Shown: positions 35,325-63,964 of the stretch, in pieces
How positions within the stretch are numbered: the first letter of the stretch is position 1
Layout of the letters: each line of letters begins with the position of its first letter
Assembly (NCBI GenBank): GCA_947184155.2
Contig: CAMXCT020000311.1
Span: 186,001 to 250,000 of the forward strand
Source of the DNA: Cladocopium goreaui
Lineage: Eukaryota > Sar > Dinophyceae > Suessiales > Symbiodiniaceae
DNA: 64,000 nucleotides
Direction: 5' to 3'
Made by a program: the position numbers and the translations under genes
The notes under the pieces: generated by a model
The model's input: only the letters and a program-made list of their open reading frames with translations
Told to the model about the DNA's origin: nothing
Databases searched by the model: none

Positions 35325-35435
35325 TCAAACAACTATTGACAACTTGAATGGATAAGACCGCCAACACAAACCCCTCATAACAAGTGGGATTATCCAGCAA
35401 TGCGGAAAAAGAGAAATCATGGCAATGGCTAGCAA

Positions 35436-38649: not shown

Positions 38650-38655
38650 ACCAAG

Positions 38656-39972: not shown

Positions 39973-40557
39973 TCGGAAGAATTGAGTTCACCTGGAACAA
40001 AATGGAAACCACAAATAAAAAGCAGTATATATATAAAAGCTGTGAACGCATGGATGCTGTTGTGAAGCATGTGGTGAGATCAAACTCCCACCTACAAGCT
40101 GAGCCCGTCCACACGAGATGGGAAAAATTGACAACGCTTGACGCAAGAGACGCTGGTCTCAAAATCAGTGGATGCTCTTGCATCTGTGTTGATGTGTAAA
40201 AGCATGACTAATGATCAAGTGAACTGACACGCGAAAAAAGCAACTAATGAAGCAACGGCTGAACCCATCAGCAACAATGAAGCAAAGCTCATAATGACAT
40301 CAATAGATGCAATGCTGACCCTAATGAGTATTCCGCAAATGCCATGCATCAACCCTGATCGAACTGATGTGAAGCTCCACACATGTGGAAAAAAATTGAC
40401 TGGGTTCCAAACAGAAACCACGCATCGCTGCCACAGCGTCTTTTGTTTTGAAAGCGAAAGCCGCTATCACTGCCGTGAAACTGCCCAACATGTTTTTTAA
40501 AAACCATTGGTTACAATGAGACGCATCATGCACATGCAGGTGAAGAACTAGCAGCCG
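39973..40557. other. Element 1 spacer between recombinase and Gag genes
   Basis: 585 bp with no protein-like frame. It contains TATATATA at 40026-40034. It probably carries the leader or promoter for the Gag/RT transcript. Confidence 0.4.
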
Positions 40558-42783: not shown

Positions 42784-42961
42784 GCGCAGCCCGGGAGGAC
42801 CGCAGGGAGTGCAAAGCTAAAGCAATGAAAAAGCAACAAAATGATTTGCACCTGAAATGATGCATGAAAAACCGTCTTGTTCAGTGGTAAACCCAGCAAA
42901 CGACATGTGTCAACGTAACCAAAGCAGTTGAAACCAAACACGCTGGTAAATGAGACCCAAA

Positions 42962-43086
42962 AAAAAAAATTGTTGAAAGCAACAGCAAACGCAGTTATGT
43001 TATGAATGCCACCTTGAGCCAAAATGTAGTGGTCAATCTATTTCATGAAATGCCCCCTACAAACAACACTGAACGAGTACAGTAAT
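42962..43086 (-). repeat. Element 1 repeat B, outer copy
   Basis: The 5' end of the element on its coding strand. It includes minus-strand CATTTTGGCTCAAG (43013-43026). Confidence 0.9.
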
Positions 43087-43200
43087 AAAAGGCGTGTAGT
43101 GCCACAACTGTCGTACTAAACGCTCACCCTCTGTAGGTTCAGTGTCACACACGCCGTAAATACCGCACCTGCCACCAAAATCTGCACTAAACGCTGTCAG
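43087..43200. repeat. Dispersed repeat shared with 34005-34115
   Basis: GGCGTGTAGTGCCACAACTG, CGCTCACCCTCTGT and TCTGCACTAAACGCT in the same order as the copy left of element 1. Confidence 0.6.
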
Positions 43201-46246: not shown

Positions 46247-46634
46247 GTTTCTAACACTCTCATGTTGGTATACTAGGGTGACATTAAAACCAAAACGGGG
46301 GAAGTGCATAAGTATGGTTGTATTCCGTATAGGTAAGCATGCGCCGCGTTTCATGTGTGCCGCTCGGGTATACGCGTAAACTGAACCAACCCTTTCGTGA
46401 AAATAAAACCACAGTCACATCACCGCCAATCTGGACAATTCAATCATTGGAAACATCTGTCGCTCAGCTTCACACTTTCTTTTTCAAACGGCGAGTCGGG
46501 GGACGATACCGATCTGAGTTTGCGTTCCGCATGGTTTTCTCACGTCGACTTGCCACCAAAGGTTTCACGTGGGTCGACTCACAAACTTTCACGCAAACTT
46601 GGCAAACTGACATTGTAGGCTTGTTTCTTCCCCC
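46247..46634 (-). repeat. Element 2 repeat A, outer copy
   Basis: 388 bp starting GTTTCTAACACTCTCATG, same as 47159-47546. Plus-strand frames inside it (for example 46339-46638) are repeated with the repeat and not called. Confidence 0.9.
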
Positions 46635-46666
46635 CTGAGGGGTGGGTTCAAAGACTCTTGGGTGGG

Positions 46667-47158
46667 AGAGCGAAAATTTCGTGATATCAAGTGCTCTAAA
46701 ATTTAAGAGCACCCTCCCTCCCTACCCTAGTTTGGGATGAAAAATTTCGAAATTGAAAACATAATCCGAAATCATTTCTCAAATAGGTTGCCAACAATGT
46801 TTAAATAGTGCAGTGTTTAAAAGTTTTGAGTTCCTGCAACGTTGTGTCAAACGCTTCTGAAATTCAAAAGGCCAACACAACAAATCACCTGGGGAAAAGG
46901 TTTTTCAAAACATTCCCTAGCAAACACAGGAACCCATCACTACACAGAACCGTGTCAGATTCCAATACACAGCAGGATCTCTAGATTCAGTCAGGCGTAC
47001 AACGCAGCACTACATAACGCTACACGCGCCGCAAGGCTCACCACTTAACCCAAATGCACAATCCCATAATCAACACCCTTAACCAACATGTACGCTTTAG
47101 GTCCATGACCTTACGCCGAGTATTAAGAAACAGAAGGATCAGCACGCTGAGCCTCAAC
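46667..47158 (-). repeat. Element 2 repeat B, inner copy
   Basis: 492 bp from AGAGCGAAAATTTCG to GAGCCTCAAC, same as 54061-54552. It abuts repeat A at 47158/47159. Confidence 0.9.
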
Positions 47159-47546
47159 GTTTCTAACACTCTCATGTTGGTATACTAGGGTGACATTAAA
47201 ACCAAAACGGGGGAAGTGCATAAGTATGGTTGTATTCCGTATAGGTAAGCATGCGCCGCGTTTCATGTGTGCCGCTCGGGTATACGCGTAAACTGAACCA
47301 ACCCTTTCGTGAAAATAAAACCACAGTCACATCACCGCCAATCTGGACAATTCAATCATTGGAAACATCTGTCGCTCAGCTTCACACTTTCTTTTTCAAA
47401 CGGCGAGTCGGGGGACGATACCGATCTGAGTTTGCGTTCCGCATGGTTTTCTCACGTCGACTTGCCACCAAAGGTTTCACGTGGGTCGACTCACAAACTT
47501 TCACGCAAACTTGGCAAACTGACATTGTAGGCTTGTTTCTTCCCCC
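47159..47546 (-). repeat. Element 2 repeat A, inner copy
   Basis: Directly follows the polyprotein stop (47572) on the minus strand. Partner of 46247-46634. Confidence 0.9.
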
Positions 47547-47571
47547 TATGGTTTCAGCCGATCAAGAGACT

Positions 47572-50500
47572 TCACAAAGCTTCGAATTTCACAAGCTCCG
47601 CCAGCTCAACGTCGAACTGGTCCCTTCTAAGAAAGTTCAAAACGTAGGCTGGCAACTGTATGTCACCGCAGTCAGTAGCATGAAGCAATTTGCCAAGTTC
47701 GGCTGACTTCCCACGTGACGGCAAATCAGCAGGGTTAGAAGCGCTCGGTACCCGCTCGCACCAAGCGCTACAAGGTAACACCACGTCCAGTAGGCTCAGT
47801 AAGGACACCATCAAGAACATTGCATGGGAAGGAGAGTTCCTCTTAATCAGAGTCATTCTGCTGGACTCGTTGTCAATGAACACAATCCCATACCGATTAT
47901 TCAGTTCTCTCCGTAAGTGCCACCTTACACATATGTAAGCAAACAATTCGATTTCACAAATTAATTGCTCACCAACTGTTGCTGTCCAGTAAGAGATCAA
48001 CACTGCCGGCACCTCACCTGCAAAGATGAGTCTCTGGCCAGACAAAGGGTCGTGAACCAGAGCGCCCCAGGTGCCTTTGCCATCTTCATAGGCCCCGTCC
48101 GTGTAAATGATCCACGGGAGGTCTGAGTCATGTAGGCGTATCCTCTTGGGCTGTACCTCTTTGGCAACTGTTAGCAGATAGTCACAGACCTGTCTGACAT
48201 CTGCCTGTGACACACTGTGGTTGTACGCCCAGGCGTTCAGGGCATGGGATCCAAGCTTGAAATGGTGGCCAAGTACAAAACCTCCAGCGAAGTTCATCAG
48301 CCCAGCCAACGACGCAACAAGGGACTTTGTTTTCCCCTCACCTTCCTTCACCAAATTTATCATTTCAACAATCCTTTCGATTCGGCCAGGTTTGTTCTGG
48401 ACCACTAGGTCACCAGTCCTGATATTTTCCAAGTTGAATTGTACCCCCAAAGCAACAGGTTGGCTGCAAAAATCTACAGCCTTCTTGCCTTGCACAGCAT
48501 GCCTCCAGCCCAAAACGTTCAGAAAGGCGTCAACTATTTTTGACGTCAAAGCAGCTAAGGGTTGTACTTCAAAAACCGGATAGTCATCATAAAAGACGCT
48601 TGTGAGGAGTCCAAACTTGTGAACCAGTAAGTGCCAAATTCCTCGGCTGATCTTGTTGAAGGAATATACCGAAGCCGAGGCACCAAACGGCAATGAACAT
48701 GTTGTGTACATACGCCATCCACCCTCACGGGTACTAAACCCCAGAACACCATGGCGCAACGATTGTCTGTGTATCGCCACTTGCTTGTAGGCTTTGCTGA
48801 GATCAATACATCTTCCAACCCAGGCCGGTCCTGCACTCATCGTAGGATGCCAAGCTCCGACCAACACTTCACCATTGCTAAGTTGGACTACCACTTGATC
48901 TCGCCTTGCAAGCACCACCATCACAAAACGCAAAAACCCCACGATAAAGTCAGTGTCCTGCAGCGCCAAGTAAGAGGATGAGGAGAAAGCGGCATTCACT
49001 CCAGAATCCTTGTAGTTGTCAATAACTCGGATCTTTCTCTCTTCCCCTTGGTATAAACAAAATCGTCGGGTCAAGCTCCAGTTGTCGGTGCCCAGTCTGC
49101 AGTTCAGTTGGTCTTCAGTGAAAGGCCCCTCCAAAAAGCCGGCTTCGACTTCTTCCTGACTTTCTTTTATGAGGTCTCGCTCCTGTTCAGCTTCCTCTGC
49201 AGTGATTGTTTTCCCCATCATCGCCCTGCGCTTCCAAACGGCCTGGTGATCCAACTGTTCAACCGTCATCACTGCAGGGGCATATTTCTTGAAGTATAGG
49301 GGAGACTCTGCCTCCTGTCCAGTCAAAGGTACCCCTTGTTCCATAAAGTTGCAAACATTCATGTCCGGGAACTGGGTTTCCATCAGCAGCCTCCTCCACA
49401 AAACCAACGCTTTGTCCTTAGTGACGGTGTTCACATGGGCCTCCATGCCAGCCCGCAACTTCTGCTCTTCTGACACCAGCGCCAATTTGAGTTTCATCAC
49501 CTCCTTCAAAACCGCAATCCTTTCTTGCGCTATCGCATGGGTCCCCATGGTGCACAGCCTGAACAAATTTCTTCTCAAAGCATCAGGAACAATATTAAAC
49601 TGTAGTGCAGGGTGCCTGAGATGTATGGCCCTGTCAAAGTGCTCTTCCGGTGAAAAATAAAACCCAATTTTGTAGAGGTCACTCTCATTGCTCCCCCCGG
49701 CTGCACAGCCTTTGTCGTTGTCTCCCCCAGTGTAGTTGAAAGGTTGTGCCAATACCTTGAAGGACCCAGTAAGCGGCAGCTCTTCCATAAACGCCACATT
49801 GCTGTATTCAGGTATGAGTTGTTCGCCCAACTTATGTTGTTTATCAGCTTGTTGCAAAAGATCCAAACGCAGGCGACGGATGGTTTGTTGAAAAAGGTGT
49901 TGAGGCAACTTGGCCGCTACTGCCGCCACCATTCGCTCCGCAAGCAATCGCGGATATTCAGCTTCAGCTGCCGTATTGAAAATCCAGTGAGGTCCCAACC
50001 TTTGGACCTTCCAGTTTGCATGGGTGTGTGAGCCATCACATTGGCCACCCAGGTGCTCAAAAATACCCGGAGTACCTTTCAGTCTGGTAGTCTTTGCAAA
50101 ATTGCTGCCATGCTGACATGCATCAAAGGTCGTGTCAGCCAAATTGAAATACCATTGCGTGTAATCAGCATTATTGCGCCGTTTCACCAAGAAGGCCAAA
50201 ATAGCCCATAACCATGATCTTTCAGGGTTTTCGATCGACACCCATAGCCCCAGCATGAAAATAATGAAAAGGATCCCTTCTGCAGCTTGATACACCTTGT
50301 TTGCACCATCCACTCTGCGTCGCTCTGCTGGCGACAAGTTCGCCAGGCCCATTAAGTGGTGTTGATCCCTCAAAGGTCTTGGTTGTGGTGCCCCTTTAGA
50401 AGTCAGCTTGTTGCTGACGGGTTTCTCTCTCGCCCTTGATGCCGTCCCACACGGCAATCCCATGTGCGTCCACTGCGGCTTCATGGTGTGATACATGTCT

Positions 50501-50661
50501 GATAGCAGCTGTTCAGATTCTGTCTTCGACAAATCCAGCTGGAAAATCTTTGCTTTGGGTGAAAACCTATTTAATTCATGGTCCACTGCAAACGTCTGAA
50601 ACCCTCTTTTTGCGGCCTCTGACGATAGTACTGCACTGCCAGCGCAAAGCTCCATAAACAC
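47572..50661 (-). CDS. Element 2 C5-methyltransferase-like + reverse transcriptase + RNase H, 1029 aa
   Basis: Residues 1-250: cytosine-methyltransferase-like with MELCAGSAVLSSEAAKRG (motif I), HMGLPCGTASRAR (PC motif, 66-78) and VSIENPERSW (ENP motif, 141-150), all in canonical order. RT about 480-760: CIDLSKAYKQVAIHR (618-632), SLPFGASASVYSF (656-668), FYDD (690-693). RNase H about 850-1005: IIYTDGAYEDG (851-861), CEIELFAY (902-909), VFIDNESSR (927-935) and SNPADLPSRG near the end. It is one continuous frame, unlike element 1. The methyltransferase residues look intact, so catalysis is conceivable. Confidence 0.85.
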   Translation of the reverse strand: MFMELCAGSAVLSSEAAKRGFQTFAVDHELNRFSPKAKIFQLDLSKTESEQLLSDMYHTMKPQWTHMGLPCGTASRAREKPVSNKLTSKGAPQPRPLRDQHHLMGLANLSPAERRRVDGANKVYQAAEGILFIIFMLGLWVSIENPERSWLWAILAFLVKRRNNADYTQWYFNLADTTFDACQHGSNFAKTTRLKGTPGIFEHLGGQCDGSHTHANWKVQRLGPHWIFNTAAEAEYPRLLAERMVAAVAAKLPQHLFQQTIRRLRLDLLQQADKQHKLGEQLIPEYSNVAFMEELPLTGSFKVLAQPFNYTGGDNDKGCAAGGSNESDLYKIGFYFSPEEHFDRAIHLRHPALQFNIVPDALRRNLFRLCTMGTHAIAQERIAVLKEVMKLKLALVSEEQKLRAGMEAHVNTVTKDKALVLWRRLLMETQFPDMNVCNFMEQGVPLTGQEAESPLYFKKYAPAVMTVEQLDHQAVWKRRAMMGKTITAEEAEQERDLIKESQEEVEAGFLEGPFTEDQLNCRLGTDNWSLTRRFCLYQGEERKIRVIDNYKDSGVNAAFSSSSYLALQDTDFIVGFLRFVMVVLARRDQVVVQLSNGEVLVGAWHPTMSAGPAWVGRCIDLSKAYKQVAIHRQSLRHGVLGFSTREGGWRMYTTCSLPFGASASVYSFNKISRGIWHLLVHKFGLLTSVFYDDYPVFEVQPLAALTSKIVDAFLNVLGWRHAVQGKKAVDFCSQPVALGVQFNLENIRTGDLVVQNKPGRIERIVEMINLVKEGEGKTKSLVASLAGLMNFAGGFVLGHHFKLGSHALNAWAYNHSVSQADVRQVCDYLLTVAKEVQPKRIRLHDSDLPWIIYTDGAYEDGKGTWGALVHDPLSGQRLIFAGEVPAVLISYWTATVGEQLICEIELFAYICVRWHLRRELNNRYGIVFIDNESSRMTLIKRNSPSHAMFLMVSLLSLLDVVLPCSAWCERVPSASNPADLPSRGKSAELGKLLHATDCGDIQLPAYVLNFLRRDQFDVELAELVKFEAL

Positions 50662-50715
50662 TGCAACATCGTTCGATGGGTCAGCATCTGGACCTCCTGG
50701 CTGTATTTCCTTTTG

Positions 50716-51954
50716 TCAGTGTCCGCACTCAATGTACGGTCGCTTCTTTCCACAGCCCTTGTAGTAGCACATGTGCACACCCATATTACACGAAGAAGCC
50801 TTCTGTCTCTTGCATGTCCCATTGTTGTAGTGCAAGCAGATGAACTTGTTTTGCTCAGTCTTGGACGTGCAATTAGCTGGCAGGTTTTGTAACAGCTCCT
50901 TGACCGTTGTCGCACCTTCAAGTTTCCTCTTTGTTCCTTGTGGCCTAGTCGAACCCTTGGAATCACCTTTGGGTGAGCTGGGTTTTGGTGCCACCGGTGT
51001 GGGTGGTTCCGGCTTTGGTGATTGCCCAGGCAGCGGGGTCATGTAGCACAACACTGTGGGTGAAGTCATCAACACCTTCAACTCTGAGTCCAGGGCTGGA
51101 GGTTGTCCCACAGCCGTCTTGAGCTTGCCACGTGTATGTTGAGACAAATAGCTCCACAACTCCTTGTCTGCAGCCATGATTTGTTGCACAGTGACGTACT
51201 TGTGTCCTGCAGGAGGTTTGCACATGATAGCCTGTACCATTGCGTTGTGCCATGTTTCCATCACATCAAAGGAGCACAGTTTGATCTGATCGAACGCCAA
51301 AGCTTTGCGAGTAAGGCACTGGCGCAGCCTCAATTCACCCGTGGCATCACAGCTAAGGGTTGACTCCGCTTTCGACACCTTAACATTTCCCTGTGCATCA
51401 AAGGACAGCTGCTGCTCGGTTTTGTTGCTTTGAATCTCATCATGACGTGAAATGCATTTTTCTGGTGCCAAATAAGTCACAACACCATCTTCCAACATCG
51501 CCTGAATTTTGTCTGTAAGAGAGTGAGCCGGCTCAAGAAACTGGTCATAAACTAAGCCTCTCAAACGATCACGTTGCTCATCAATTCGGACTAACCTCTC
51601 TGCCAATGGTATTGATTTAGGTGTGTCACTGGGATTCTTCTGCATTTTGTTTTGCAATTCAGTCACTGTCAGTGTGTAGGACTCGAACCACAGGCGCCTA
51701 ATTAAGATCATGTCCTGCGGTGTCAAAGGGTCTCCATCAGTTAACAAGCGGCCCAGGGCTTCCTTAAGTGGTCCATCATCACCTGCCGTTGGATTAACAC
51801 GGCAAACATAAGCCAGCTTTCCAAAAGTATCAACTCCAGCCACAACAAGTCGTTCAATCAGTTCGTCTCTCATGCCAATGTCTGCAGCTCGCGCTCTAAA
51901 GCTCGGAACCGACTCCATTGAGGCCATGCTCAACGCCAAAATGGCGCAGAACAC
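50716..51954 (-). CDS. Element 2 Gag-like protein with CCCH finger, 412 aa
   Basis: A helical N-terminal region (MRDELIERLVVAGVDTFGKL), a central domain (LCSFDVMETWHNAMVQAI), a Pro/Lys-rich linker and a C-terminal CCCH finger (CLHYNNGTCKRQKASSCNMGVH: C-x7-C-x7-C-x4-H) with a further C/H cluster (CYYKGCGKKRPYIECGH). Same role and position as the element 1 Gag. An inner Met (MASMESVP) may be the real start. It is separated from the polyprotein by 54 bp. Confidence 0.72.
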   Translation of the reverse strand: MFCAILALSMASMESVPSFRARAADIGMRDELIERLVVAGVDTFGKLAYVCRVNPTAGDDGPLKEALGRLLTDGDPLTPQDMILIRRLWFESYTLTVTELQNKMQKNPSDTPKSIPLAERLVRIDEQRDRLRGLVYDQFLEPAHSLTDKIQAMLEDGVVTYLAPEKCISRHDEIQSNKTEQQLSFDAQGNVKVSKAESTLSCDATGELRLRQCLTRKALAFDQIKLCSFDVMETWHNAMVQAIMCKPPAGHKYVTVQQIMAADKELWSYLSQHTRGKLKTAVGQPPALDSELKVLMTSPTVLCYMTPLPGQSPKPEPPTPVAPKPSSPKGDSKGSTRPQGTKRKLEGATTVKELLQNLPANCTSKTEQNKFICLHYNNGTCKRQKASSCNMGVHMCYYKGCGKKRPYIECGH

Positions 51955-52331
51955 GAACTGAAATGTCAGAAAGGTTCACTGGCTCGAAAATAAACCAAGT
52001 GCAAAACAAGGGCAATGAAAACGTTTCGTTTGTCGTTTCAAATAAGCTTCTCCTACTTGGCTTCCGCAATTAAACAGTTGAATCAAAAGAAATAATCAAG
52101 CTGCAATCACATGTCATGTATCTACATGCCCCTGAGCTCTGTCAATTGTCCAAGCTATTCCGCTTGAGAAATCCTCCTGGTGAGCCAATGCACACAAAAT
52201 GGTACAAATCACGTGGTGTGTTGCAAGTTCCTGCAATTCACATATACCACTTCAAGTTGAATACTGATTTATAAAAACTTCACCGCTGGTAAATCCCCAG
52301 CGCTATTTTTCTCGCTCCAGGTCTCGCTAGT
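51955..52331. other. Element 2 spacer between recombinase and Gag
   Basis: 377 bp, AT-richer than the genes, no frame. Equivalent in position to 39973-40557 of element 1 and likely to hold transcription or leader signals. Confidence 0.4.
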
Positions 52332-53846
52332 TCAGCGATAAAGTTCCTTGTTGCACTGCTCACAGAATTCGTGAGTTGCACGTTCTTCCCATGGAAAATC
52401 AATGGGTTTCATATTCAGCGACATCCTGCGGCCGCATAACAAGCTGTCGGTTGTTTCCATGCAATGCACGATGCCCGAAAGCCGGTGAACAACACAGTGT
52501 GCGCTTTCCCCTGGAGGAAAATCTGATCTAGTACCTGACTGGGACTCCTCTGGGATCTTCACTGGTTGGATCTCAGCCCCGTCCTCATCGACATCTGTTT
52601 CGCACTGCTCAGCACGCTCCATTTCCTTTTGAAGCCTTTCCTCACGGTCCAGCTCCATCTCATTCTTTTCAGGAAGGTGGGTGGCTAAATGATTCAATCC
52701 AGTGGCCATGGCAATCCTCTCAGCCCTGCTGGCATCAGGGTCAAAAATGCCTTTTCTCACAGTCTCCAGCATGCGGTACACCTTCACCATGGTAGCTGCT
52801 ATTGCGTCCCGTGAATATGTTACGGCCATCTTCGTTTCCTCATCCAGGTCAAGCTTCCATACCATCTCTGCAGTGAGGGGAGGCGCCTGACGCAGTGTCC
52901 TCTTCTTTGCAACCAAGTCTTTTGAAGCACCAATAACTCGGCCTGAAATCAAGTCGTTGTTGACTGCCTGTCCTGCACCTACGGTGTGAACCATGAACCG
53001 CCAAGCTGACAAAAAGGACTCACCTGCTGTGGCACCTGCTCCAGTTGACCGCAACACCGATATGTAACCGTGCAAGTCAGCTTCTGTGGGATTCAGAGGT
53101 CTCCCACGCCCAGATTGTATCATCCCTTCAGCAAACCTCGTAAAATCTGCAGCCCTTCTCACCAAAGTTGCCACGGCCTTACCAGCAAAACAATCTTTGA
53201 GCGATTGTTGAAGAACGTCCTCTCCCACCACTGCACCTGCAGAGGTCAGCAAGGCTCTGCCAAGTTTGCTGTCCTCTGGCCAGTACAGTACCAAATTGCG
53301 CAACTTCCGTAATGCTGATGTCAGAAGATCGTCATCTGACTTGGCCAGCTTTGCAGTCAGCAGTCGCCTCCTAGCAAAAGGGAGAGGGCCATTCACACCA
53401 GTTGCAGCCTGTCGATTCAGCGTCTCGTCCTGCATGGCATTCTCAATATGTGCAAGTCTCCCCAACGCTGGCAGTCTGAAAAGGTCTGACACCCAATCCA
53501 ATTTATGAACACCAACTTGCACTGCCAGCAGCATCTTCTCATTTCGGCCCAAAATCAATGTAGCATCAAAAACCTGCTGAGCAATTCTAGTTCTTCTTTT
53601 GCATTCCTCTTCAGCATCAATTTCCACTTCAGAGGCATGGTATTTACGTTTCCAAGGCTCTTTCTCAGGTTCCCTTGCATCTTCATGAAGACCAAAATCA
53701 TCTGCAATGCTTGGAACAGGACTGATGCTACATGCTACACTCGGCAAGGATTTCCCAAAACCAAAATCCTCTTCATCCAGCTCTTGGTTATCCCCCCCCA
53801 ATGGCAGAGCTACGGTCAGGACCATCACCTCCAATGTAAAGTGCAC
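52332..53846 (-). pseudogene. Element 2 tyrosine recombinase missing its catalytic core, 504 aa
   Basis: The N-terminal half has the SAM-like DNA-binding region of this protein type (LTSALRKLRNLVLYWP, TEADLHGYISVLRS, SAWRFMVHTVG). After PPLTAEMVWKLD at about 333 it passes within ten residues to MAVTYSRDAIAATM (Tyr344), which matches the catalytic-Tyr segment of element 1 (RLYSRDDV). In element 1 about 200 residues with the Arg, Lys, HxxK and His boxes lie between the equivalent points. An in-frame internal deletion is the simplest reading. The C-terminal tail has two Cys/His groups (CVVHRLSGIVHC, CEQCNKE). The frame itself is open. Confidence 0.65.
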
Positions 53847-54060
53847 CGGTGCGTTCTGTGACGATCAGCCCTAGCGCACAAATGATCACAAAAATTGCAG
53901 TTGTGGTGGCAATGTGGAGGATGGACCGACTCAACCGTTGGAGGGTCTGGGATAGTAACTCGAAACCGCTGGGCCAACTCGAAGAGAATCAAAATCAGTA
54001 GACGAATCAGCTCTGTAATAGTTAGCCGCTGTACATTGACAGCATCCATCAAAATGGCTA

Positions 54061-54552
54061 AGAGCGAAAATTTCGTGATATCAAGTGCTCTAAAATTTAA
54101 GAGCACCCTCCCTCCCTACCCTAGTTTGGGATGAAAAATTTCGAAATTGAAAACATAATCCGAAATCATTTCTCAAATAGGTTGCCAACAATGTTTAAAT
54201 AGTGCAGTGTTTAAAAGTTTTGAGTTCCTGCAACGTTGTGTCAAACGCTTCTGAAATTCAAAAGGCCAACACAACAAATCACCTGGGGAAAAGGTTTTTC
54301 AAAACATTCCCTAGCAAACACAGGAACCCATCACTACACAGAACCGTGTCAGATTCCAATACACAGCAGGATCTCTAGATTCAGTCAGGCGTACAACGCA
54401 GCACTACATAACGCTACACGCGCCGCAAGGCTCACCACTTAACCCAAATGCACAATCCCATAATCAACACCCTTAACCAACATGTACGCTTTAGGTCCAT
54501 GACCTTACGCCGAGTATTAAGAAACAGAAGGATCAGCACGCTGAGCCTCAAC
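54061..54552 (-). repeat. Element 2 repeat B, outer copy
   Basis: The 5' end of element 2 on its coding strand. 492 bp, partner of 46667-47158. Confidence 0.9.
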
Positions 54553-55612
54553 TTTTAAACAGGTTTCACCTTCATGTAGAAGGTACACAACCTTCGAAAC
54601 CCTTGGGTCAGCGTCCAGGACGTCGTCCTTAACTCACTAGAACCGTCCACGCTACCAAGTCAACCACTCCCAGAGCTCAGCCACTTTTACCAAACACACA
54701 AGCAACAAGGAGAAATGTCTTGCTCATGTCGCTATGGTTCTTGTTGGTGTGTCACGCCTTGACACAAAATGATGCGGAGTCGCCAGTCAGCATCTTTCTG
54801 CTAACTCTCACAAAAACGATCAAAAACACATGTCCTCACAAAAAGTCTTTACATCAAGACATGGTTTGTTTGTTTAAATAAGTTTGAGTGTTTGAAAAAC
54901 GTTGAAACATTTCAAGCACCAAAACATGATTCATGATGTCTCCCTCAGATCTGTTAGCAACTCCAGTTCTGAATGCCTTTCAGAACGTTGCTCTCGCTAT
55001 CATCATTGAGAGACAAAACACACTACTCTTCTCCAATCAATGTCAAACAAAGTTCCTTCTTCCGAAGTCACAAAATGAATTCTACGATCTTCTCACGATT
55101 CCTTCGTGCACTTCTGCGATGATTCTGCAATCATTCTGCCATCGTTCTGCCGGCAAAAACTAAAGCAAAACATATGGAAAATGGTTTGATTTTCCATGTC
55201 ACTATACAAATTCAAATCCTCACGATGTTCTCCGTGCAATCAAAGTACTCAAAGAAGACGAAAAGTATATCGTTGTTGGGTTTCGTCATCTCCAATAAAA
55301 CGTGCAAAACATGAAACGTGCAAATACGATGTCAACCATCACGGTTGAGCTCATCATCAAGATGAAAACCAAATTCACTTCTTCCAATGCAGAAAAGACC
55401 AATGGATTCATCTCACCACAGATGTCGGAAATTTTCACACCCCCTTTTGAGATGAACTCCATTCCATGTATAGCTGTAACCCATCCAGACTTCAGCACGT
55501 ATCGCTCAAGCTTAACAGGTCAATACATATAGTACGAATTGTCCCGTTGTTCACCATCCAATGAACAACCAGCTCATAGTCTTTCCTCGCCTTTGCACCA
55601 ATGAAGATACTC
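54553..55612. other. No gene seen; possible copia 3' LTR
   Basis: AC/AAG-rich spacer. The 3' LTR of the copia element could extend into it, but the 5' LTR is outside the window so the limits cannot be set. The only notable patterns are GATTCTGCAATCATTCTGCC-like short repeats around 55113-55150. Confidence 0.35.
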
Positions 55613-56194
55613 TCAATCACCCAACTGCCTCTGCACTGAAGTTCCAGTGAAGCAACCCTTTGGCTTTCCAACCTTTCCAGAGTCCTCCACAACCTTGCAT
55701 GCGCAGAGAAAAGAATACCAATCCTTTGCAATTGGACTTGTACTCTTGTTTCCCAGGTGATTCATACTCCATTTGCAATATCCTGCCATCTCATCATCGA
55801 CATATACCTCTCGGTATGTTTTGCCTTCGTTGGCAAACTTTCCAAACGCAAACTTCGTTCTGCTCCAATCTCGAAAACTCATGCCTTCAGGCACCAAATC
55901 AGCAGTAAGCTGATCAAGGACCTTGTCGGCAATCCCAGGAAAGATTGGGATAGGCATGACAGGCAACTGTGCATTCAAAGGTTCAGCTGCCGAAGAAATC
56001 ACATCGAATTCATCATCATCCAGAGCCTCACGAAGTCGCTTGCTTCCATCTGTCATTGCTCCTTGACTCTCCAAAGGAGTCAAAATACTGGATCCGGCTG
56101 CATAGCCTGACCCTGAATTCCCACTGTTCCACTTCTTCTGAAGAAGAGCAAGCAAAGCTTTCTCATCCTCATCTGTCCATCCAGACTTGGCCAT
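55613..56194 (-). CDS. Copia 3' accessory ORF, ExoX-C-like domain, 193 aa
   Basis: Starts MAKSGWTDEDEKALLALLQ, has a variable acidic linker (REALDDDEFDVISSAAE), then residues about 120-175 with RDWSRTKFAFGKFANEGK, TYREVYVDDEMAGYCKWSM and a helical end (AKDWYSFLCACK). The FGK…Y.…D..Y..W pattern resembles the small C-terminal module of exonuclease X-like proteins (recall only). It lies about 337 bp beyond the polyprotein stop on the same strand. A homologue at equal distance follows the decayed copia copy at 12520-13065, so it seems to travel with the element. Function is unknown. Confidence 0.55.
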   Translation of the reverse strand: MAKSGWTDEDEKALLALLQKKWNSGNSGSGYAAGSSILTPLESQGAMTDGSKRLREALDDDEFDVISSAAEPLNAQLPVMPIPIFPGIADKVLDQLTADLVPEGMSFRDWSRTKFAFGKFANEGKTYREVYVDDEMAGYCKWSMNHLGNKSTSPIAKDWYSFLCACKVVEDSGKVGKPKGCFTGTSVQRQLGD

Positions 56195-56507
56195 GGCTAC
56201 AAACCAAACCGGGTCCGGTAGTGAAAAAGCACTAGACCGTGGCTAAACTCTTAGGAGCAATTAACCTAGAACGTGAAACGAAGTGTCGAACCGCCATCAC
56301 AGTCGTGATAGGATCAGTGGCCTTTCAGATTGTTCTGCACTGCGCACACACACTGCATCTTACAGCATCGCGCAACAAAACTTTGCACAAGATGAAACAT
56401 AGTGAAAACTCCTGTTTGTCTTTGGCAACGTTTGTTTGAAAACAACGTGCAAACAAAAATGAAACGGAATGAAACATGGTACCAACTTCTGTCTCTCTCT
56501 CTGTCAC

Positions 56508-56531
56508 AGGGCCCCCTTTCAAACGCAAATT
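56508..56531 (-). other. Polypurine tract and LTR start of the copia element
   Basis: Minus strand GAAAGGGGG (56520-56512) is followed by CCCTGTGACAG. The tract lies 11 bases after the polyprotein stop, where a plus-strand primer should be. TGTGACAG at 56508 is the likely first base of the 3' LTR, which would place the accessory ORF within or beyond the LTR. Confidence 0.5.
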
Positions 56532-59500
56532 CAACTCTTCTTCGAAGCATGTTTGACCGCAATCAAAATGTATCTTGCCAACTTTCGGTTGTAAAACGCT
56601 GTTTCAGTATAGTTGATTTGATAAAGTTCTGCATGAGTCTGACATGTGCATGTAGAAAGTTTGGAGTGAAGATTTAGTGCAAAACAAGCTGAATTGGAAA
56701 CAAACTTCAATGTCTTTCCAATCGGAATACCATCCTTGTTCTGACATCCAGTCTTGCACAACCTCACCAAAGCCTCATGCCTCATGTCAAAACTCTGCAA
56801 AAGATTCACTGTCTCAGGTCGGGACCAAATGTTATTTCGTTCTGGAAGCTCAAACGAACATGAGTCTGCATGTTTGAAGTAACCACCAATCGCGTTGATG
56901 ATCTCATCCCATTCCTGGTCCTTGTCAGTGACTGAGTCCGGATTGAAATTGCGAAGCGGACTTCCACTTCCACAAGGAGTCGATGCATGAATATGCACCC
57001 AAGGTGGACATGACGAGTTCTTCCACTGTCGAATGCAAACAGCTACACGACTCAACGTTCCAGAACTCTGCACCTTAGCAACTACACCAATGTATGGGAC
57101 TTTCGAAACTTCACAGACCTTTCTCAAGTTCGAATGTTCCGAACAACACAGTTCCACAATCGCAATTGAAGAACCCTGAGTCAACACTTGCTGCAACACA
57201 CTCAGCTCACGAAGCTCTGCTAACTCAGCTGTCAAACCATCTGGAACCACAATCCCAAGAGCATATCGATGTTTATAGAAAGCTTTAGCACTCAAGCATT
57301 TAGTGAAAAGATCTGCTGGGTTTTCAACACCACTTCTGTGTCTCAATTTCAACAAACCCTCTCTCATCTGCTCTCGTAACCAATGCAATCTTATTTCAAT
57401 ATGTAGTGAACGTCGTGGCACGTCCATGGATCTCACAAGTTGCAATGCGGAGCTTGAATCACTCTCCAACCAAATCACAACTTCTTCTGGTTCATCGATC
57501 TCATGAAGTGCAAACAGAAGACGGTGAACCAGTCTTCCAAACGCAACACTTTCTTGACACACTGATTGCAAACCATAGAGTTCTGCCTCACATGAACTCA
57601 AGCTCAAAGCTTGCTGTTGTCGGCTCAGAGACCTTACCAAAGACCTCTCAAAGAAAACAGCTCCACCGCTAACACCTTTGCGGTTGTTGAAACGGTACGG
57701 CGCATGTGAAGCGTCGCTGAAATAGTGAAGATGGACTGATCTCAGTTGAGTATCATCAACCTGACTCATGATGGTCTCATCTCTGCTCGGTAAACACAAG
57801 CATGCATGCATGTCAACATACAAGAATCTCAAAACTGCTTTCAATGCTTGCTCGGTTCCGTGCATCGGTTTCGCTTGTTGTGTCCCAAGAACAGACATCC
57901 ATGTCTTCAAGTCATGGCGCACCTGTGACAACCAAAGCAATTTTCCCAACGCCTTCCTGAAGCGTGAGTATGCTTCATCTGACAAAGGTTTCTGAAAATT
58001 GCTATCCGTGAGTGTCTTCTCCAGATGTCCCGAAATGTCAGGAACATTCTCAGACCCACGGGTAACACCGTAATCCAGAAACGTAGAGTCAAGATAATGT
58101 GGATCGACACCCAGAGTGATCTCAGAGGAATCTCTTTCTCTTTTGATAACACGACCAATAAAGGTCAGGGATCCTCCCTCTTCTCCGATCTCTCCAGTTG
58201 TCTTCACAGGCACTACAGACGACAAAGTTGCAACCACATGTTCTTCGGCTTCCTTAGTGGTCGACAACAACAAGATGTCATCAACATACACCACACACAA
58301 ACAAAACCCAATTTCGTGACCATCTTTCACAATCTGTCCACCATACACACATGGTTCCAGCGAATCAGACCAAAGGCCTACATGTTCAACCGTAAATGTC
58401 AAAAGCTGCAACCATGCCAGTGAAGCGTCACGTAACCCATTCAATGCCTTTTCAAGCAAATAGTAGGTCGCTTCACCTGATGGAAAGCTAATCGACAACG
58501 GCATTTTCAAGACAACATGTACACCAGTTCCCAATGGACTATGCATGAAGGCATGACTCACGTCCAATGCACGCAAAAGCATCTTCCGTGTCGCTGCCAT
58601 CGCAAGTACCAAATGGACACTCTCGATTGAAGGAGTCGGACTGCTAAATCCCAAAGATCTAGCTGAGGAGCCACGATTGAAGTCCTTCGCAACAATCCTG
58701 GTTCGAACCCTCTCACTGCTTTTGTAAGCTGCAACCCACCTTGACTGGATCAAACGAAGGTTCGGAACAGCCTTCTTCATGTCGTCCAGTTCTGACTGAG
58801 TGATGATGCGGCCAGTCTTGCAATGTTCCAAGTTCCTAACCTCCTCTTGCATACCTTTGAAACCTTGTTCCAAATCAAGCTCTTGCAAACTCTGGTCATC
58901 TATGATACTGTCCGGTTTCCAGACCAAGACATCCTGACCTCCAAGACGCATCTTCACAAAAGCATGCTCATTGCCTCGATTGAAACAAACAGAATCAAGA
59001 GAACCAGAAAACATTTCTGGAGACGTTGCAGGAGCAAAAGACGCTGGACCTTCAAGTGTACCCAAACTCGCAACCAACACAGGCTCACCACTACCAACCC
59101 AAAACCAATCAAAATCCATGTTTGTTTGAAGCAGTTCCTCAGAATCTTCACGGATCTCTCTTTCCAACTGTTCTCGGTCGGTCTCAGCTTTCCTTTTAAA
59201 CCTTCTGGTGTACTCAACCTGTGTTTCCGGCTGTCGCCGAGCGGACTCAGGTGTTGGTACCAATTCTTCATCATCGACCTCTTCTACTGGCACCTGAACC
59301 TGGGGTACGACAACAGGGCTCTCCTGAGAGAGTGCAGGTTCAACACGTCTTTCCTTTCTCCGTTGTTCCTCAAACTCAGCAAAACGCTTTCTACATTCCT
59401 TGTTGTGCCTAATACCAGGTGCTTCCATGCCACTCTCACATGCTGGACATCGACGAGTCGGTTCAAAACGTGATACGTCAGGTGAAGTTCTTTCAGAACT

Positions 59501-61640
59501 CTCAGGACTACCAATGGCTACATCTGCAGTATCTGCTGGTGACGTAGGAGGTGGAGTGACAGAAACTCGAGACGGCTCTGCTGGAACTTCCTGTGGAGTC
59601 ACGGCAACGTTCGATCTTGCCAATGGCACTGCTGGCGCCAAACGTAGCTCACCAGATTTCTTCTTCACACTGCTGGACTCTGGCAAGACAAGTTTTGGCT
59701 GTGAAGGTGCCGGCAAACTCTGGCCTTTCAACTTTCGCAACTCTTCAGGAGGTAGCTGACTCATATCAGCTGGTGCAGTCCCACTGTCATTCACAATTTG
59801 GGGTCTACTACCTACAGTCCCAGTGTCAAATTGTGTCAAAACACCCTGTCCCGAATTCAAATCCCATCTCAAAGGTGAAATAGCCCTGATGTTCCTAGCT
59901 ACAAAACGCATCAACTCAGCTTTGCCATCCACACGAATGAGACCCTGCACAACTGGACCTCGTTCCAATCCCATGTGAATGAAAGTACACTCAACATTCC
60001 TTGTTGAAAGTGGTGAATGCTGCCGAATTGAATCAGGAATTTCTGCCAAAACCTGAGCACCAAACAAAGTCGAAACTGGTTTGGATAACTTCCTTCCTGA
60101 CACCATTTCCAATGGACTTCTGTCTGAACCTCTCGATGTTGAAAAATGGTTGTTGCACAAAGCCAAATACGTCAAAACGTCAACCAAATTCTCATGTGAA
60201 AACGTGACATCCAACCCTTGTGCATTCAGATCAGCCCTTAGTACAGAAAAGGATTCCTTTAATTCCCTAACTGCTCGCTCAGCCGACCCAATTGATCGAT
60301 GTTGTTGTGGCGCGGCTCTCCGAATAGCGAACGTATATCGGCCAGTGGAGGATCCAATGATCTCTCCCACTGCCCTCTCGCTATCGGTGTGGACATCAAT
60401 GGAGACTGCCTTCGAAGTCAACCCAAAATGTTGAAGCCATACAACAATTTGTCTCCTGGCTGCTTCGACATCTTCTCCAACCACCACATAGCCAATGCAC
60501 CTCGACATCATCTCGGTTAACACAAGGATCTTCACCGAACCTGGGAGTTCGTCTGCGGCGATCTCGCCTGATGTCTTGAGGAATGCAAAATCGGCCTGAA
60601 TAGAAACCTCTTTCCTGTCACCTTTGTCTCTTCTGTGCTGAAAAACGGAACGACCCTTGGCACACTCCAAGCAATTCGGATTGAATGGAATATGTCCCTG
60701 TCTCCGGTGACGTGCCAGTTCACTGTCGTCTCCTCCAGACACAGCTGCGACAGAAAAGTCATGAGTGTTACTCACAGTCAAGTCAGACCTGCATGCACTA
60801 CTACTACCAACATCTGGATACAAACGAACCCAAGGACAATTGGCAAAATAAGCAACATCAAGACAATGCATTCCAAGCCTTTCATGGAACAAATCAAAAC
60901 CTTTTGGACCTTGTGTGAATCTCCATCCCGAATCTGCCAATGAAGTAATTGACAAAATGTTGTGCCGGATGGAACCCACCAAAACATTCAAACGTGCTTT
61001 CTTCCAACACCAATCATCACCTGATGTGCCTGACATGTGCATCTGTACTCCAATCTCAGCAGTGCCTGACATGTTGACTGAGGATCCATTGGCAGCTTTG
61101 TAGCCACCTAACCCCTCACTGTCCTGCAGCACTGACCTGAAGGTTGACAAGTTCGACTCAGCCAAAACACTTGTGGATGCACCAGAGTCAAGAAGCCACC
61201 AAGAAGCATCGGTGTTGTCAGCGACCTGTGAAAGCAAAGGTCGCAAAAACTTCAAGTAAGGTTCAATCTGCTGTTCAACCGAAACCTCACTGTGGTCATC
61301 AAACCAATCATGTGCACGCACCAAAACGACTTTCATCGGTACAGTGGCACACAAGTCTCGGCTGGGGTCATTAACAAAACGTGTCTCCAAGTTGGAACTG
61401 TCACCAAGTCCAACTTCATCTCCAAACTTCAAACCACAAAACCATGGCTCATGAGTACAGCTGTCGCAACCTCTTGCCAGCACACAACCCATGTCAGCCG
61501 CTTCAACTTCCTCTGGCTCATGAGTACAGCTGTCGCAACCTCTTGCCAGCACACAACCCATGTCAGCCAGTTCACTTTTCACTACTTCTGACTCACAAGT
61601 ACAGCTGTCGCAACTCCTTGCCAGCACACAACCTGTGTCA
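56531..61640 (-). CDS. Copia Pol: protease, integrase, reverse transcriptase, RNase H, methyltransferase-like domain
   Basis: The open frame reaches to 61969 (1812 codons, residues numbered from there), but its first ~110 residues are the Cys repeat read out of frame. Order fits Ty1/copia: aspartic protease LLDSGASTSVLA (259-270); integrase HHCC (HRRQGHIPFNPNCLEC, 421-436) and D-D-E core (IQAD 460, HTDSE 529, SAERAVREL 564); RT with RALDVSHAF (1143-1151) and VVYVDDILL (1226-1234); RNase H with YFSDASH, SSCEAELYG and ESDSSSA (1416-1506) and ENPADLFTK. After RNase H a C5-methyltransferase-like domain follows: IVELCCSEHSNL (1604-1615), HASTPCGSGSPL (1661-1672), FELPERNNIW (1706-1715). A C-x2-C…H-x3-C motif (CPACESG…HNKEC) lies near 841-859. 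Confidence 0.85.
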
Positions 61641-61880
61641 GTCAGTTCATCTTTCTCTTCTGACGAAGTCTTCTGACTCATGAGTACAGCTGTCGCAACT
61701 CCTTGCCAGCACACAACCCATGTCAGCCAGTTCATCTTCTTTTGACTCACGAGTACAGCTGTCGCAGCTCCCTGCCAGCACACAACCCGTGTCAGCCAGT
61801 TCACTTTCTTTTGACTCACGAGTACAGCTGTCGCAACTCTTTGCCAGCACACAACCCGTGTCAGCCAACTCACTTTCAAA
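61451..61880 (-). repeat. Tandem 69-bp coding repeat (Cys-rich) across the gag/pol junction
   Basis: Six units beginning at plus-strand 61451, 61520, 61595, 61680, 61749 and 61818. Spacings are 69, 75, 85, 69 and 69 bp. Each encodes a version of SELADTGCVLARSCDSCTRE (Cys pattern C-x5-C-x2-C). All spacings are multiples of three except the 85-bp one, which is exactly where the reading frame changes from Gag to Pol. Three units belong to each frame. Confidence 0.9.
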
Positions 61881-63410
61881 GTCTTTGCAATCAACCACAA
61901 GCCTATTCTCGGTTTCCATGTCAGCAACCTCATGCTCATGCACAAACCTAAGACCTCCAGTGGTTTCACATGTCATGTCAAACAACAAAGGATTAATGAT
62001 CATGCTGCCGACACTGCCAGTCTTTTGGACATCAGACCTATTGTCGTGGCTTGCACTCGGTTCCGCACTTTGGACTGGTCCCTGTTGCCAGGTATACCCA
62101 TACCCGTCGCAATACCATCCAGAACCATCGTCCCACCATGTCTGCGAAACTCCCCATTGACCATCACAGCTCTCCGGCCATTGGTCATGCCACCAATAGT
62201 CATCATCGTCCCAACTCTCTGCAGTCCAGTCGGTCCAATCCTCTGAAACTTCATTCAACTTGCCTTTCTTTCCTTTTCCTTTGCTACTGCCTTTGCTCCT
62301 AAAGGTAGCACCTTTTCCTTTGGAACGAGAAAGGTTCCAAGCATCAGTCCTTGCACTACCCTTACCTTCCTTGCTCTCAGGGCAGTTGAAGCTGATGTGT
62401 CCCATCTTACCGCATCTAAAACACCGAATCTTGCTCATGTCTGCGGTACAACCTGGGGCAGTGTGTTTCCGACTGCCACACTTCCCGCATCTGCCTTCCA
62501 TTGCATCTACAAGTTCGGCATCAAGAGAATGATGTTCTACACTCCCCTCCAGGGAACTCAATCTCTTGCTGTGGCCTGTTGTCTCAAAATCGCTAAACAG
62601 GCGTTGTTGCTCTTCCCACCGCATCGCAGCGTTCCTGTAGGACTCGTAATTGTCTGCGCCGCTGTGGTGGAGAACGTAGTTCTTCACTGTCTCAGGCAAG
62701 CTTTTCAACAGAACAACTAGCATGTCAGAATCTGCCAGCTTCAGTCCTGTGGTGTCCACCTGCATAGGGAGAGTTCCTAACAACCTTAAGAACCTTGCAG
62801 CTTCATAGTCAATTCTTCTGATAGTATCACTAACCAAGGAACTCGGCGATGTCTGTGTCGCCGCCAGGACAAAGGATTTCCCTGCAATCTGCGTCCTTAG
62901 TGAGAGCGCTTCGGATCTTGACCTCAGAGAAAATTCAAGAGTAAGTTGCCTAAGCAGTTCAAACCCATTTGCTTGCTGGTTTACTGCTACTGTCACTCTG
63001 TCACTAGATCCTACTCCATGTAATGCCACACCCTCACTGAAGGCGTTCACCAACGCCACACACCTGGGGTTGTCGTGAAACGCAGCTTTTAAGATGGACA
63101 TAAGCCTTCGAGACCTTGCCTGTTGTGCTCCACTGAGCGCACTCCATCTGATGGGACCGGGCCAACGGCTACTATGCTGGATTTCTACAGAAAACTCTAA
63201 ACTTCCACCAGCTGCCCAGGATGACAACTCATCCAAATAGCCAGCCCAACCTAACACCTCTTCTTCTCTTGTCTTCCAAGTTCCTACTGGTGTTGGTGCC
63301 GGTGTCAACCATTTTTCGCTTTTGGCGAAGACATCCAATTGCTGTGAATTTCCATGATTTGATTGTTGAACACCAAAACCAGGCAAAACATCAAATGGCT
63401 GCGGAGTCAC
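61647..63410 (-). CDS. Copia Gag with two zinc knuckles
   Basis: The frame opens after a TGA at 63420-63422. The first Met-labelled codon at 63410 is GTG, so the true start or shift is uncertain. A capsid-like helical region (RWSALSGAQQARSRRLMSIL, ANGFELLRQLTLEFSLRSRS, FLRLLGTLPMQVDTTG) is followed by CCHC knuckles (CGKCGSRKHTAPGC and CFRCGKMGHISFNC), a Lys/Gly-rich run (SKGSSKGKGKKGK), a Trp/Asp-rich stretch (WTDWTAESWDDDDYWW) and three Cys repeats. The stop (RRER-TGA) is reached in the 85-bp spacer; continuing into Pol needs a +1 shift. Confidence 0.82.
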   Translation of the reverse strand: MTPQPFDVLPGFGVQQSNHGNSQQLDVFAKSEKWLTPAPTPVGTWKTREEEVLGWAGYLDELSSWAAGGSLEFSVEIQHSSRWPGPIRWSALSGAQQARSRRLMSILKAAFHDNPRCVALVNAFSEGVALHGVGSSDRVTVAVNQQANGFELLRQLTLEFSLRSRSEALSLRTQIAGKSFVLAATQTSPSSLVSDTIRRIDYEAARFLRLLGTLPMQVDTTGLKLADSDMLVVLLKSLPETVKNYVLHHSGADNYESYRNAAMRWEEQQRLFSDFETTGHSKRLSSLEGSVEHHSLDAELVDAMEGRCGKCGSRKHTAPGCTADMSKIRCFRCGKMGHISFNCPESKEGKGSARTDAWNLSRSKGKGATFRSKGSSKGKGKKGKLNEVSEDWTDWTAESWDDDDYWWHDQWPESCDGQWGVSQTWWDDGSGWYCDGYGYTWQQGPVQSAEPSASHDNRSDVQKTGSVGSMIINPLLFDMTCETTGGLRFVHEHEVADMETENRLVVDCKDFESELADTGCVLAKSCDSCTRESKESELADTGCVLAGSCDSCTRESKEDELADMGCVLARSCDSCTHESEDFVRRER

Positions 63411-63964
63411 AACGACGAATCAGCTGCCCTACCAAGACCATCACCAAACACTTCTGGAACCCCTCTTCTCTGTTGCATAGTTACAAAACGATCTTGCATA
63501 TGCTGCTGCACTGTCTGTAGCTGTCCCTCACTCATGCTACCTAACATGGCCATGACCTCTTGGATCTGCGCCGCCTGAGGCGTCAAACCTCCCAAGCTCG
63601 CTCCAACCGGGCCACTCGGCATGTTTCCTTGGCAACTCATTGGGTTCACTCCTAAGTTTGGAAAATCTCCAGACCTTGGTCCACCAGGCATACTCGCACA
63701 ACCATAACTTGGCACACGCGCTTGCGAATTCTGTTGCATAAACGTTTGTTGTTGGGGAATCCATTGCGCACCAAACCATGCTGGTCCCAGTCCTTGCATT
63801 CCGGGGACATTTCCTTGCTGACATCCCTGCACCGGACCTACCTGACCACCTGCATCCAGGTTTGTCGTGCTCGCAAATCCCTGTACGCTCTGTGACACAT
63901 TTGCTTGTTGTTGCTGTGGCTGCTGCTGGGGCATGTTACTTACTTCAGGTGTTTGTTCATCCAT
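63407..63964 (-). CDS. Copia leader ORF, Gln/Gly-rich, 185 aa
   Basis: Starts MDEQTPEVSNMPQQQPQQQQ, is Gln/Gly/Pro-rich, and ends with a helical part (QIQEVMAMLGSMSEGQLQTV, QHMQDRFVTMQQRRG). Its TGA overlaps the first codon of the Gag frame. It is probably the N-terminal part of Gag, separated by a -1 frame change around 63407-63425 (an indel or a programmed shift). No classic slippery heptamer is seen. Confidence 0.65.
   Translation of the reverse strand: MDEQTPEVSNMPQQQPQQQQANVSQSVQGFASTTNLDAGGQVGPVQGCQQGNVPGMQGLGPAWFGAQWIPQQQTFMQQNSQARVPSYGCASMPGGPRSGDFPNLGVNPMSCQGNMPSGPVGASLGGLTPQAAQIQEVMAMLGSMSEGQLQTVQQHMQDRFVTMQQRRGVPEVFGDGLGRAADSSL

Follow-up and report, generated by a model that had tools for sequence, protein, structure and literature searches.

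Retrotransposons of dinoflagellates are known to carry cytosine methyltransferases. In Symbiodinium, DIRS elements and long interspersed nuclear elements (LINEs) bear domains of the Pfam family PF00145, and these retrotransposon DNA methyltransferases (DNMTs) are able to methylate CGs de novo; DIRS elements without a DNMT are also noted there, and the copia superfamily is said to lack any DNMT domain (de Mendoza et al. 2018, PMC5890265). An earlier note on a window of Cladocopium goreaui DNA (64,000 nucleotides, bases 186001-250000 of contig C311) refers to such reports. It claimed that three retrotransposons in the window, here called element 1, element 2 and the copia element, all carry domains like those of cytosine-5 (C5) methyltransferases, and it took this to suggest repeated capture and a part in a methylation conflict between elements and host.

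Among described systems, SymbioDIRS-Dnmt3 resembles elements 1 and 2 in several respects. It is a dinoflagellate DIRS element with a cytosine-methyltransferase domain in Pol beside the reverse transcriptase (RT), its tyrosine recombinase lies in a separate open reading frame (ORF), as the putative recombinases do here, and the domain is under purifying selection. It was found with PF00145, however, and groups with eukaryotic Dnmt3 (PMC5890265). PF00145 matches only 2 of 26 domains of the element 2 type and none of 32 of the element 1 type, which have ENP or EQP as motif VI and end in a short K..C..H..YP tail. We regard elements 1 and 2 as a variant of the DIRS-borne C5 enzymes already known from Symbiodinium.

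Other systems are more distant in one way or another. SymbioLINE-Dnmt is likewise a dinoflagellate retrotransposon bearing a C5 methyltransferase, but it is a LINE, and its enzyme occupies an upstream ORF of its own and is detected by PF00145 (PMC5890265). The Dam-like domains of DIRS elements (cited in PMC5890265 and PMC6338049) also sit inside Pol; unlike the domains considered here they are of the adenine type, structurally unrelated to cytosine DNMTs (PMC5890265). The phage families phrog_757 and phrog_363 are the best library matches of element-2-type domains, and phrog_757 is short (247 positions), but these are phage proteins not borne by retroelements, and the scores are weak (best E values 6e-5 to 9e-5). 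Finally, the Ty1/copia elements of Symbiodinium (PMC5890265) share an RVT_2-type Pol with the copia element of the window, which differs in having methyltransferase-like motifs at its C terminus.

How are the three domains of the window related, and what might they do? The explanation we favour, with a probability of roughly 0.6, is that they represent one retroelement-borne family of C5-methyltransferase-like domains (elements 1 and 2 clearly, the copia element probably) that would act within Pol on new complementary DNA (cDNA). The analysis shows that the domains of elements 1 and 2 are homologous, that a tie of moderate strength connects them with C5 enzymes, that they have long been inherited together with RT, and that they bear signs of purifying selection.

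Results

The domains and their copies in the genome

All nine motif strings named in the earlier note are present in the translations in the order claimed, and the placement given there holds: the domain is N-terminal to RT in elements 1 and 2 and C-terminal to RNase H in the copia element (Table 1). Methyltransferase-like motifs thus occur in the Pol proteins of two unrelated superfamilies, DIRS and copia. Since element 1, like element 2, is DIRS-like, the co-occurrence is one of two superfamilies. The family keeps motif I, which binds S-adenosylmethionine (SAM; E/D-x-C-x-G, altered in the copia domain), the cysteine of motif IV and the glutamate of motif VI. It departs from C5 enzymes in having E-N/Q-P for ENV and a K...C..H...Y(P) tail for QxR.

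We searched the 1.17-Gb host assembly for each domain; genome lists hold the best-scoring candidates and are given as the best N of M wherever a figure rests on them. Each domain type returned thousands of first-look candidates in this one genome. Among the best 151 of 3541 for element 1, identities go down to 48%, and among the best 147 of 3057 for element 2, to 43%. For the copia domain, every one of the best 150 of 2021 has an identity of 97-100%, a pattern suggestive of a recent burst; they therefore establish a repeat family and not the conservation of residues. All three domains are repeated in the genome and mostly open.

From 100 extracted family members we dropped 8 with in-frame stops, and 58 of the 92 intact ones, picked for diversity, make up two alignments: A1, with 26 element-2-type domains, and A2, with 32 element-1-type domains. 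The motif IV cysteine and the motif VI glutamate are invariant in both (26/26 and 32/32). Together with the repeated, mostly open state of the three domains, this takes the observation beyond chance. Both residues are present in the copia domain as well, and in a further lineage, L193, described below.

Elements 1 and 2 share a domain

When the two alignments are compared by hhalign, A1 and A2 match over 223 columns with a probability of 98.9% (E 3.9e-17). A third lineage emerged from a genome search with phrog_757 (best 150 of 411 candidates). Eleven of the 150 listed places lie in ORFs of 1035-1077 residues, the size of a DIRS pol ORF, and one, L193, lies in an ORF of 2603 residues. L193 has the motifs PPCTAWCAFSR, VVVENPATSDIW and K...C..H...YP, and matches A1 at 96.7% (E 3.8e-10) and A2 at 77.9% (E 1.9e-5). 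Its own genome search (best 150 of 5156 candidates) returned places 28-100% identical in ORFs of up to 3080 residues. The 301 nucleotides (nt) upstream of L193 read as an acidic spacer, not as RNase H.

The signature E-N/Q/L-P...W...K...C..H...Y-P/N is found in 25 of 26 element-2-type and 32 of 32 element-1-type domains, in L193 and in the copia domain, and in none of 87 C5 reference sequences. A joint alignment of 10 sequences from the four lineages leaves C, E-x-P, W, K, C, H and Y invariant. Of the references, 5 come from this genome and 82 are viral ORFs, some of them possibly incomplete, and PCQ and ENV patterns were used to fetch part of the set. Given that bias, the case for one family in the DIRS elements rests more firmly on the homology scores.

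These results bear on the 'repeated capture' proposed in the earlier note, that is, on the idea that three elements independently acquired different methyltransferases. The placement of the domain, N-terminal in DIRS and C-terminal in copia, fits such a history, as does the large divergence among the versions; independent capture has also been inferred for Dnmt3 in two DIRS architectures (de Mendoza et al. 2018, PMC5890265). The proposal is nevertheless not supported for elements 1 and 2, the two domains being homologous to each other and to L193 and sharing a signature absent from the pattern-fetched references, and in each DIRS family the domain tracks RT. The copia domain is placed too weakly to say whether its origin is common with theirs. 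We consider three separate captures improbable.

Two observations accompany the phrog_757 and L193 lists. Most of the listed phrog_757 places (131 of 150) are in ORFs shorter than 300 residues, many of 205-235 residues, with E values down to 7e-18; such short ORFs, for example C556:44281-44826 and C558:275238-275747, form a repeated small methyltransferase-like gene family. Separately, ORFs of 2773 residues, listed both for the L193 domain and for the copia family of C4412, had suggested that the domain belongs to that family. This seems unlikely: an RT probe of 131 nt from the C4412 family, with 40 of its 66 candidates scored, was co-located with none of the best 150 of 5156 L193 places, the one contig in common being C279, where the two lie about 100 kb apart. 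The equal ORF length is probably coincidence.

Comparison with C5 enzymes

The alignment of element-2-type domains matches the 87 C5 sequences by hhalign at 68.9% (E 4.5e-5); the match opens at motif I and extends as far as the PC motif, covering motifs I-IV. The score is 40.0; 20 column shuffles reach at most 22.0 and the reversed alignment 14.3. Motif I and the motif IV cysteine fall in the order and spacing of C5 enzymes. We judge the link of the element 2 family to these enzymes to be moderate. Element 1 appears tied to them only transitively, by way of element 2, because A2 alone fails against the C5 profile yet matches A1. L193 aligns to the C5 profile at 12.1% (E 0.0024) across the part from cysteine to glutamate. 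Thus the label 'C5-methyltransferase-like' suits the element 2 family, reaches element 1 by that indirect route and applies to the copia domain weakly.

Beyond motif IV the resemblance changes. Motif VI is ENP in 26/26 element-2-type domains and in L193, EQP in 32/32 element-1-type domains and ELP in the copia domain; ENV occurs in 84 of the 87 references, a count biased by the pattern used to fetch part of the set. The cysteine and glutamate are 69-73 residues apart in the element 2 type, 61-64 in the element 1 type, 47 in L193, 41 in the copia domain and 37-49 in C5 references, so the stretch between the two catalytic motifs is longer in the DIRS versions than in C5 enzymes. The QxR of motif VIII is not seen in the retroelement domains, where the short K..C..H..Y(P) tail stands. 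This tail seems not long enough to hold a target-recognition domain of the canonical kind; its final YP..LA is a candidate remnant of motif X.

Domain libraries give a further view. The 26 element-2-type domains were compared singly with 38,880 PHROGs at a limit of E 1. Thirteen matched phrog_363 (best E 6.2e-5), 11 phrog_757 (8.7e-5), 3 phrog_116 (6.9e-4) and 2 phrog_5999 (0.0026), all four named 'DNA methyltransferase'; four other listed families reached best E values of 0.034-0.39. In a run of ten members taken singly, 4 matched phrog_363 and 4 phrog_757 at E <= 0.05. The alignment to phrog_757 covers residues 4-214 in one member (8.7e-5) and stops about the ENP motif in three (0.0013-0.045). 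To characterise these families, nine viral relatives of C5 enzymes were compared in the same way: phrog_116, phrog_363 and phrog_5999 were matched by all nine and phrog_757 by one. The window copy of element 2 taken alone reached phrog_757 at E 0.1 and, in Pfam, just PF03602 at E 0.2, below significance; with slightly shorter ends it had no Pfam match at E <= 10.

Several results weigh against a C5 identity. A Pfam scan of the three window domains matched no methyltransferase family, PF00145 included, nor did Pfam match L193. Across the family members, PF00145 reaches a best E of 0.038 (limit E 1) and is outranked in A1 by Methyltransf_23 (0.0027) and MethyltransfD12 (0.0048), with two of the 26 members each; none of the 32 element-1-type domains matches any Pfam methyltransferase, and the element 1 family matches no phage methyltransferase among the PHROGs. 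NCBIfam gives the 26 element-2-type members one dcm match (E 0.16) among six weak families. In the PDB, the element 2 profile finds three matches at motif I (E 0.21-1.9), all to generic SAM methyltransferases; the element 1 profile finds none, and the single element 2 sequence finds one unrelated chance match. In profile comparisons, A2 against C5 scores 17.7 where shuffles reach 18.1, no better than chance; a first C5 profile, built from the 5 host-genome sequences only, matched neither DIRS family; and when hhalign was forced past motif IV, the later motifs were not sensibly matched. No relative was confirmed when viral contigs were searched, the queries being A1, A4, L193 and the copia domain, or when A1 and A4 were run against prokaryote genomes. 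A tblastn search of phages with two family members gave chance matches only. L189, the sole viral-contig match of the copia domain, was discarded as chance, its protein reading as unrelated.

Could the domains belong to another kind of class-I methyltransferase, adenine-N6 or other? DIRS elements elsewhere carry Dam-like adenine enzymes, and the generic PDB matches at motif I, together with the Pfam ranking just given, point in that direction. The order of motifs, PC...S and then E-N-P, is nevertheless that of C5 enzymes; the PHROGs matched are matched by viral C5 relatives too; and by eye the element-2-type alignment has no DPPY-like motif IV. We think this possibility slightly less probable even than independent capture.

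A side observation concerns PF00145. The best match of this family in the assembly, L001 (C1:2459259-2460266), adjoins an ORF whose translation resembles response regulators of bacteria, and the contig that carries it, C1, may be bacterial.

The copia domain

The copia domain was compared with several hidden Markov models (HMMs). Its strongest result, the best of seven HMM tests, comes from a model balanced between the types, which 2 of 5000 shuffles scored as well. Against A1 and A2 combined its score is 8.2, a value that 1 of 2000 shuffles exceeds. BLASTP aligns it with L193 from motif VI to the end (E 0.032). In the joint alignment it has all the invariant positions named above and is without the glycine of motif I and the acid of motif II. 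A relaxed signature, drawn up after the copia domain had been seen, occurs in 85 of 20000 shuffles, or in 4 of 20000 when an upstream PC is added.

Other tests speak against membership. The HMMs of A1, A2 and C5 taken separately score the copia domain no better than shuffles; 33 of 5000 shuffles do as well against A1, A2 and L193 together, and 115 of 5000 against L193 alone; hhalign ranks 1 of 200 shuffles above the copia domain; and the DIRS-only signature is not present.

The copia motifs might also have arisen by chance, or by convergence in a C-terminal domain of other origin. On that account one would point to the single-sequence scores, weak or at shuffle level in most tests, and to three other copia lineages (L190-L192, from 150 scored of 7362 candidate RVT_2 places) in which the 851 nt downstream of RT contain no such domain by eye. 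The balanced model and the relaxed signatures, post hoc as the latter are, argue the other way. We hold chance or convergence to be somewhat unlikely, and the copia domain to be a probable, diverged member of the DIRS-type family. In two of the other copia lineages, L190 and L191, the C terminus reads by eye as a run of hydrophobic residues, a coiled coil and a Cys/His knuckle, with no methyltransferase-like domain.

Age and selection

In both DIRS families, distances between domains track distances between RTs: the Pearson coefficient is 0.97 in each, and Spearman coefficients are 0.78 and 0.84 (20 and 21 loci used, out of 30 and 30). Ratios of nonsynonymous to synonymous substitution (dN/dS) are low, at 0.06-0.19 for the element 1 type (5 of 120 pairs) and 0.046-0.20 for the element 2 type (11 of 78 pairs); the pairs left out were saturated or outside the dS limits, and those used overlap in members. 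Because its distances follow those of RT and its dN/dS is low, the domain is to be read as an old, maintained part of DIRS Pol proteins.

We also looked for CpG depletion as a mark of self-methylation and found no sign of it in the window: observed/expected ratios in the elements (0.61-0.69) are within the range of two other stretches (0.59 and 0.70).

Layout of the window

The elements of the window are set out in Table 1. We class elements 1 and 2 as DIRS-type because of their split direct repeats in the layout A-ORFs-B-A-B. The repeats of element 1 are 100% identical over 126 nt (A pair) and 99% over 287 nt (B pair); those of element 2 are 99.8% identical along 496 nt (A pair) and fully identical along 388 nt (B pair). 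In both, the ORFs run from a recombinase-like to a gag-like frame and then to a pol frame that opens with the methyltransferase-like domain. RT and RNase H, as expected of DIRS elements, are present in each, RNase H by reading of the translation: in element 1 it seems to run on in an overlapping ORF (35436-36122; RVT_3 weak, E 0.11), and in element 2 it lies in the pol ORF, whose RVT_1 match (E 7.3e-5) is under the Pfam cut-off. The recombinase-like ORF of element 1 has the R..HxxK..GKH..Y motifs in order, yet no Pfam or PDB match. That of element 2 has no Pfam match and the TYSRD tail as its only motif; it seems to consist of an N-terminal domain and a C-terminal tail only.

Table 1. Features of the three retroelements in the window
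Feature	Position	Strand	Description
Element 1, DIRS-type retrotransposon	34319..43087	-	split direct repeats, A-ORFs-B-A-B
Element 1 repeat arms	A 42962-43087, B 35040-35324, A 34916-35041, B 34319-34605		order A-ORFs-B-A-B
Element 1 pol ORF	35986..38655	-	methyltransferase-like domain and RT; RVT_1 E 1.4e-7
Element 1 diverged domain	37714..38409	-	DICCGLHAPL, PSCCEYS, EQP; N-terminal to RT
Element 1 gag-like ORF	38656..39987	-	CCCH zinc finger, zf-CCCH E 1.7e-4
Element 1 tyrosine-recombinase-like ORF	40558..42816	-	GLRFADL ... HGLK ... GKH ... LYSRD, in order
Element 2, DIRS-type retrotransposon	46247..54556	-	split direct repeats, A-ORFs-B-A-B
Element 2 repeat arms	A 54061-54556, B 47159-47546, A 46667-47162, B 46247-46634		order A-ORFs-B-A-B
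Element 2 pol ORF	47572..50715	-	methyltransferase-like domain, RT, RNase H
Element 2 domain	49903..50679	-	ELCAGSA, PCGTAS, IENP; N-terminal to RT
Element 2 gag-like ORF	50716..51975	-	Cys/His cluster close to C terminus, by eye; no Pfam match
Element 2 tyrosine-recombinase-like ORF	52332..53864	-	both ends present, catalytic middle seemingly missing, by eye
Copia pol ORF	56531..61972	-	Pol_BBD-like, integrase-like (by eye), RVT_2, RNase H (by eye), C-terminal domain
Copia C-terminal domain	56534..57235	-	ELCCSEH, TPCGSGS, ELPERN; last 234 residues, after RVT_2 and RNase H
Copia gag ORF	61647..63419	-	CCHC zinc knuckle, zf-CCHC E 1.2e-5

The copia element has RVT_2 (E 1.7e-18) downstream of an integrase recognized by eye, the order of Ty1/copia; its Pol_BBD match (E 0.007) is under the cut-off. 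Across its gag-pol junction (61445-61877), tandem repeats with a spacing of 69 nt code for ELADTGCVLARSCDSCTRES-like units in both overlapping ORFs. Downstream of pol, on the same strand (-), an ORF of 209 residues (55613-56242) without a Pfam match could be an additional gene of the copia element. A pair of direct repeats lying between elements 1 and 2 (43246-43789 and 45373-46108, 92-99% alike by BLAST) surrounds about 1.6 kb and perhaps marks another nested element. In the genome at large, the 21-base word of the dinoflagellate spliced leader has 172 exact occurrences, and its backward control has 0, which marks the host as a dinoflagellate.

Discussion

What would a C5-like domain do inside Pol? 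Lying beside RT and RNase H, it would methylate cytosines of newly made cDNA, or of RNA or the hybrid. It would need no sequence reader of its own, its position next to RT supplying the substrate, and the copy of the element would reach the nucleus already marked. Action on nearby cDNA, RNA or hybrid is the simplest proposal because the domain sits beside RT and its tail is short for a target reader.

A different reading keeps the descent from C5 enzymes and gives up the chemistry. The domain might be a nucleic-acid-binding or assembly module of Pol, comparable to the chromodomains of other retrotransposons. This would suit a tail seemingly too short for target recognition, the lysine in place of QxR, the change of ENV to ENP, EQP or ELP, and a copia version in which motif I has no glycine and motif II no acid. 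It accords poorly with the invariance of the motif IV cysteine and the motif VI glutamate in both DIRS families, with their retention in the copia domain and L193, and with the low dN/dS. We regard a non-methylating module as unlikely for the family as a whole. Having lost the glycine of motif I along with the acid of motif II, the copia domain may by itself be an inactive nucleic-acid-binding remnant.

For the retroelement-borne family that we favour, a broader history can be put forward tentatively, as a possibility we would not ourselves bet on. The domains might form an unrecognised clade of 'ENP type', compact methyltransferases derived from C5 enzymes and devoid of a canonical target-recognition domain, present in DIRS elements, copia elements and at least one more lineage, that of L193 with its long ORF, and passed between superfamilies. 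Their RT-coupled marking of cDNA could partly explain heavy CG methylation such as that reported for Symbiodinium. Titles and abstract openings in the literature, a search outside which most subscription journals fall, yielded no DNMT-like domain in copia elements and no ENP-type clade. The Pfam-silent type in DIRS elements and its probable presence in copia look new.

If confirmed, the copia domain would run contrary to the published statement that copia elements have no DNMT (PMC5890265), as far as the hosts are the same. The domains are small and suited to a direct enzyme test. Should the proposed family be real, surveys of these genomes would have counted too few methyltransferase-bearing elements, elements classed as free of a DNMT might have one after all, and it might be common for dinoflagellate retroelements to mark their own cDNA.

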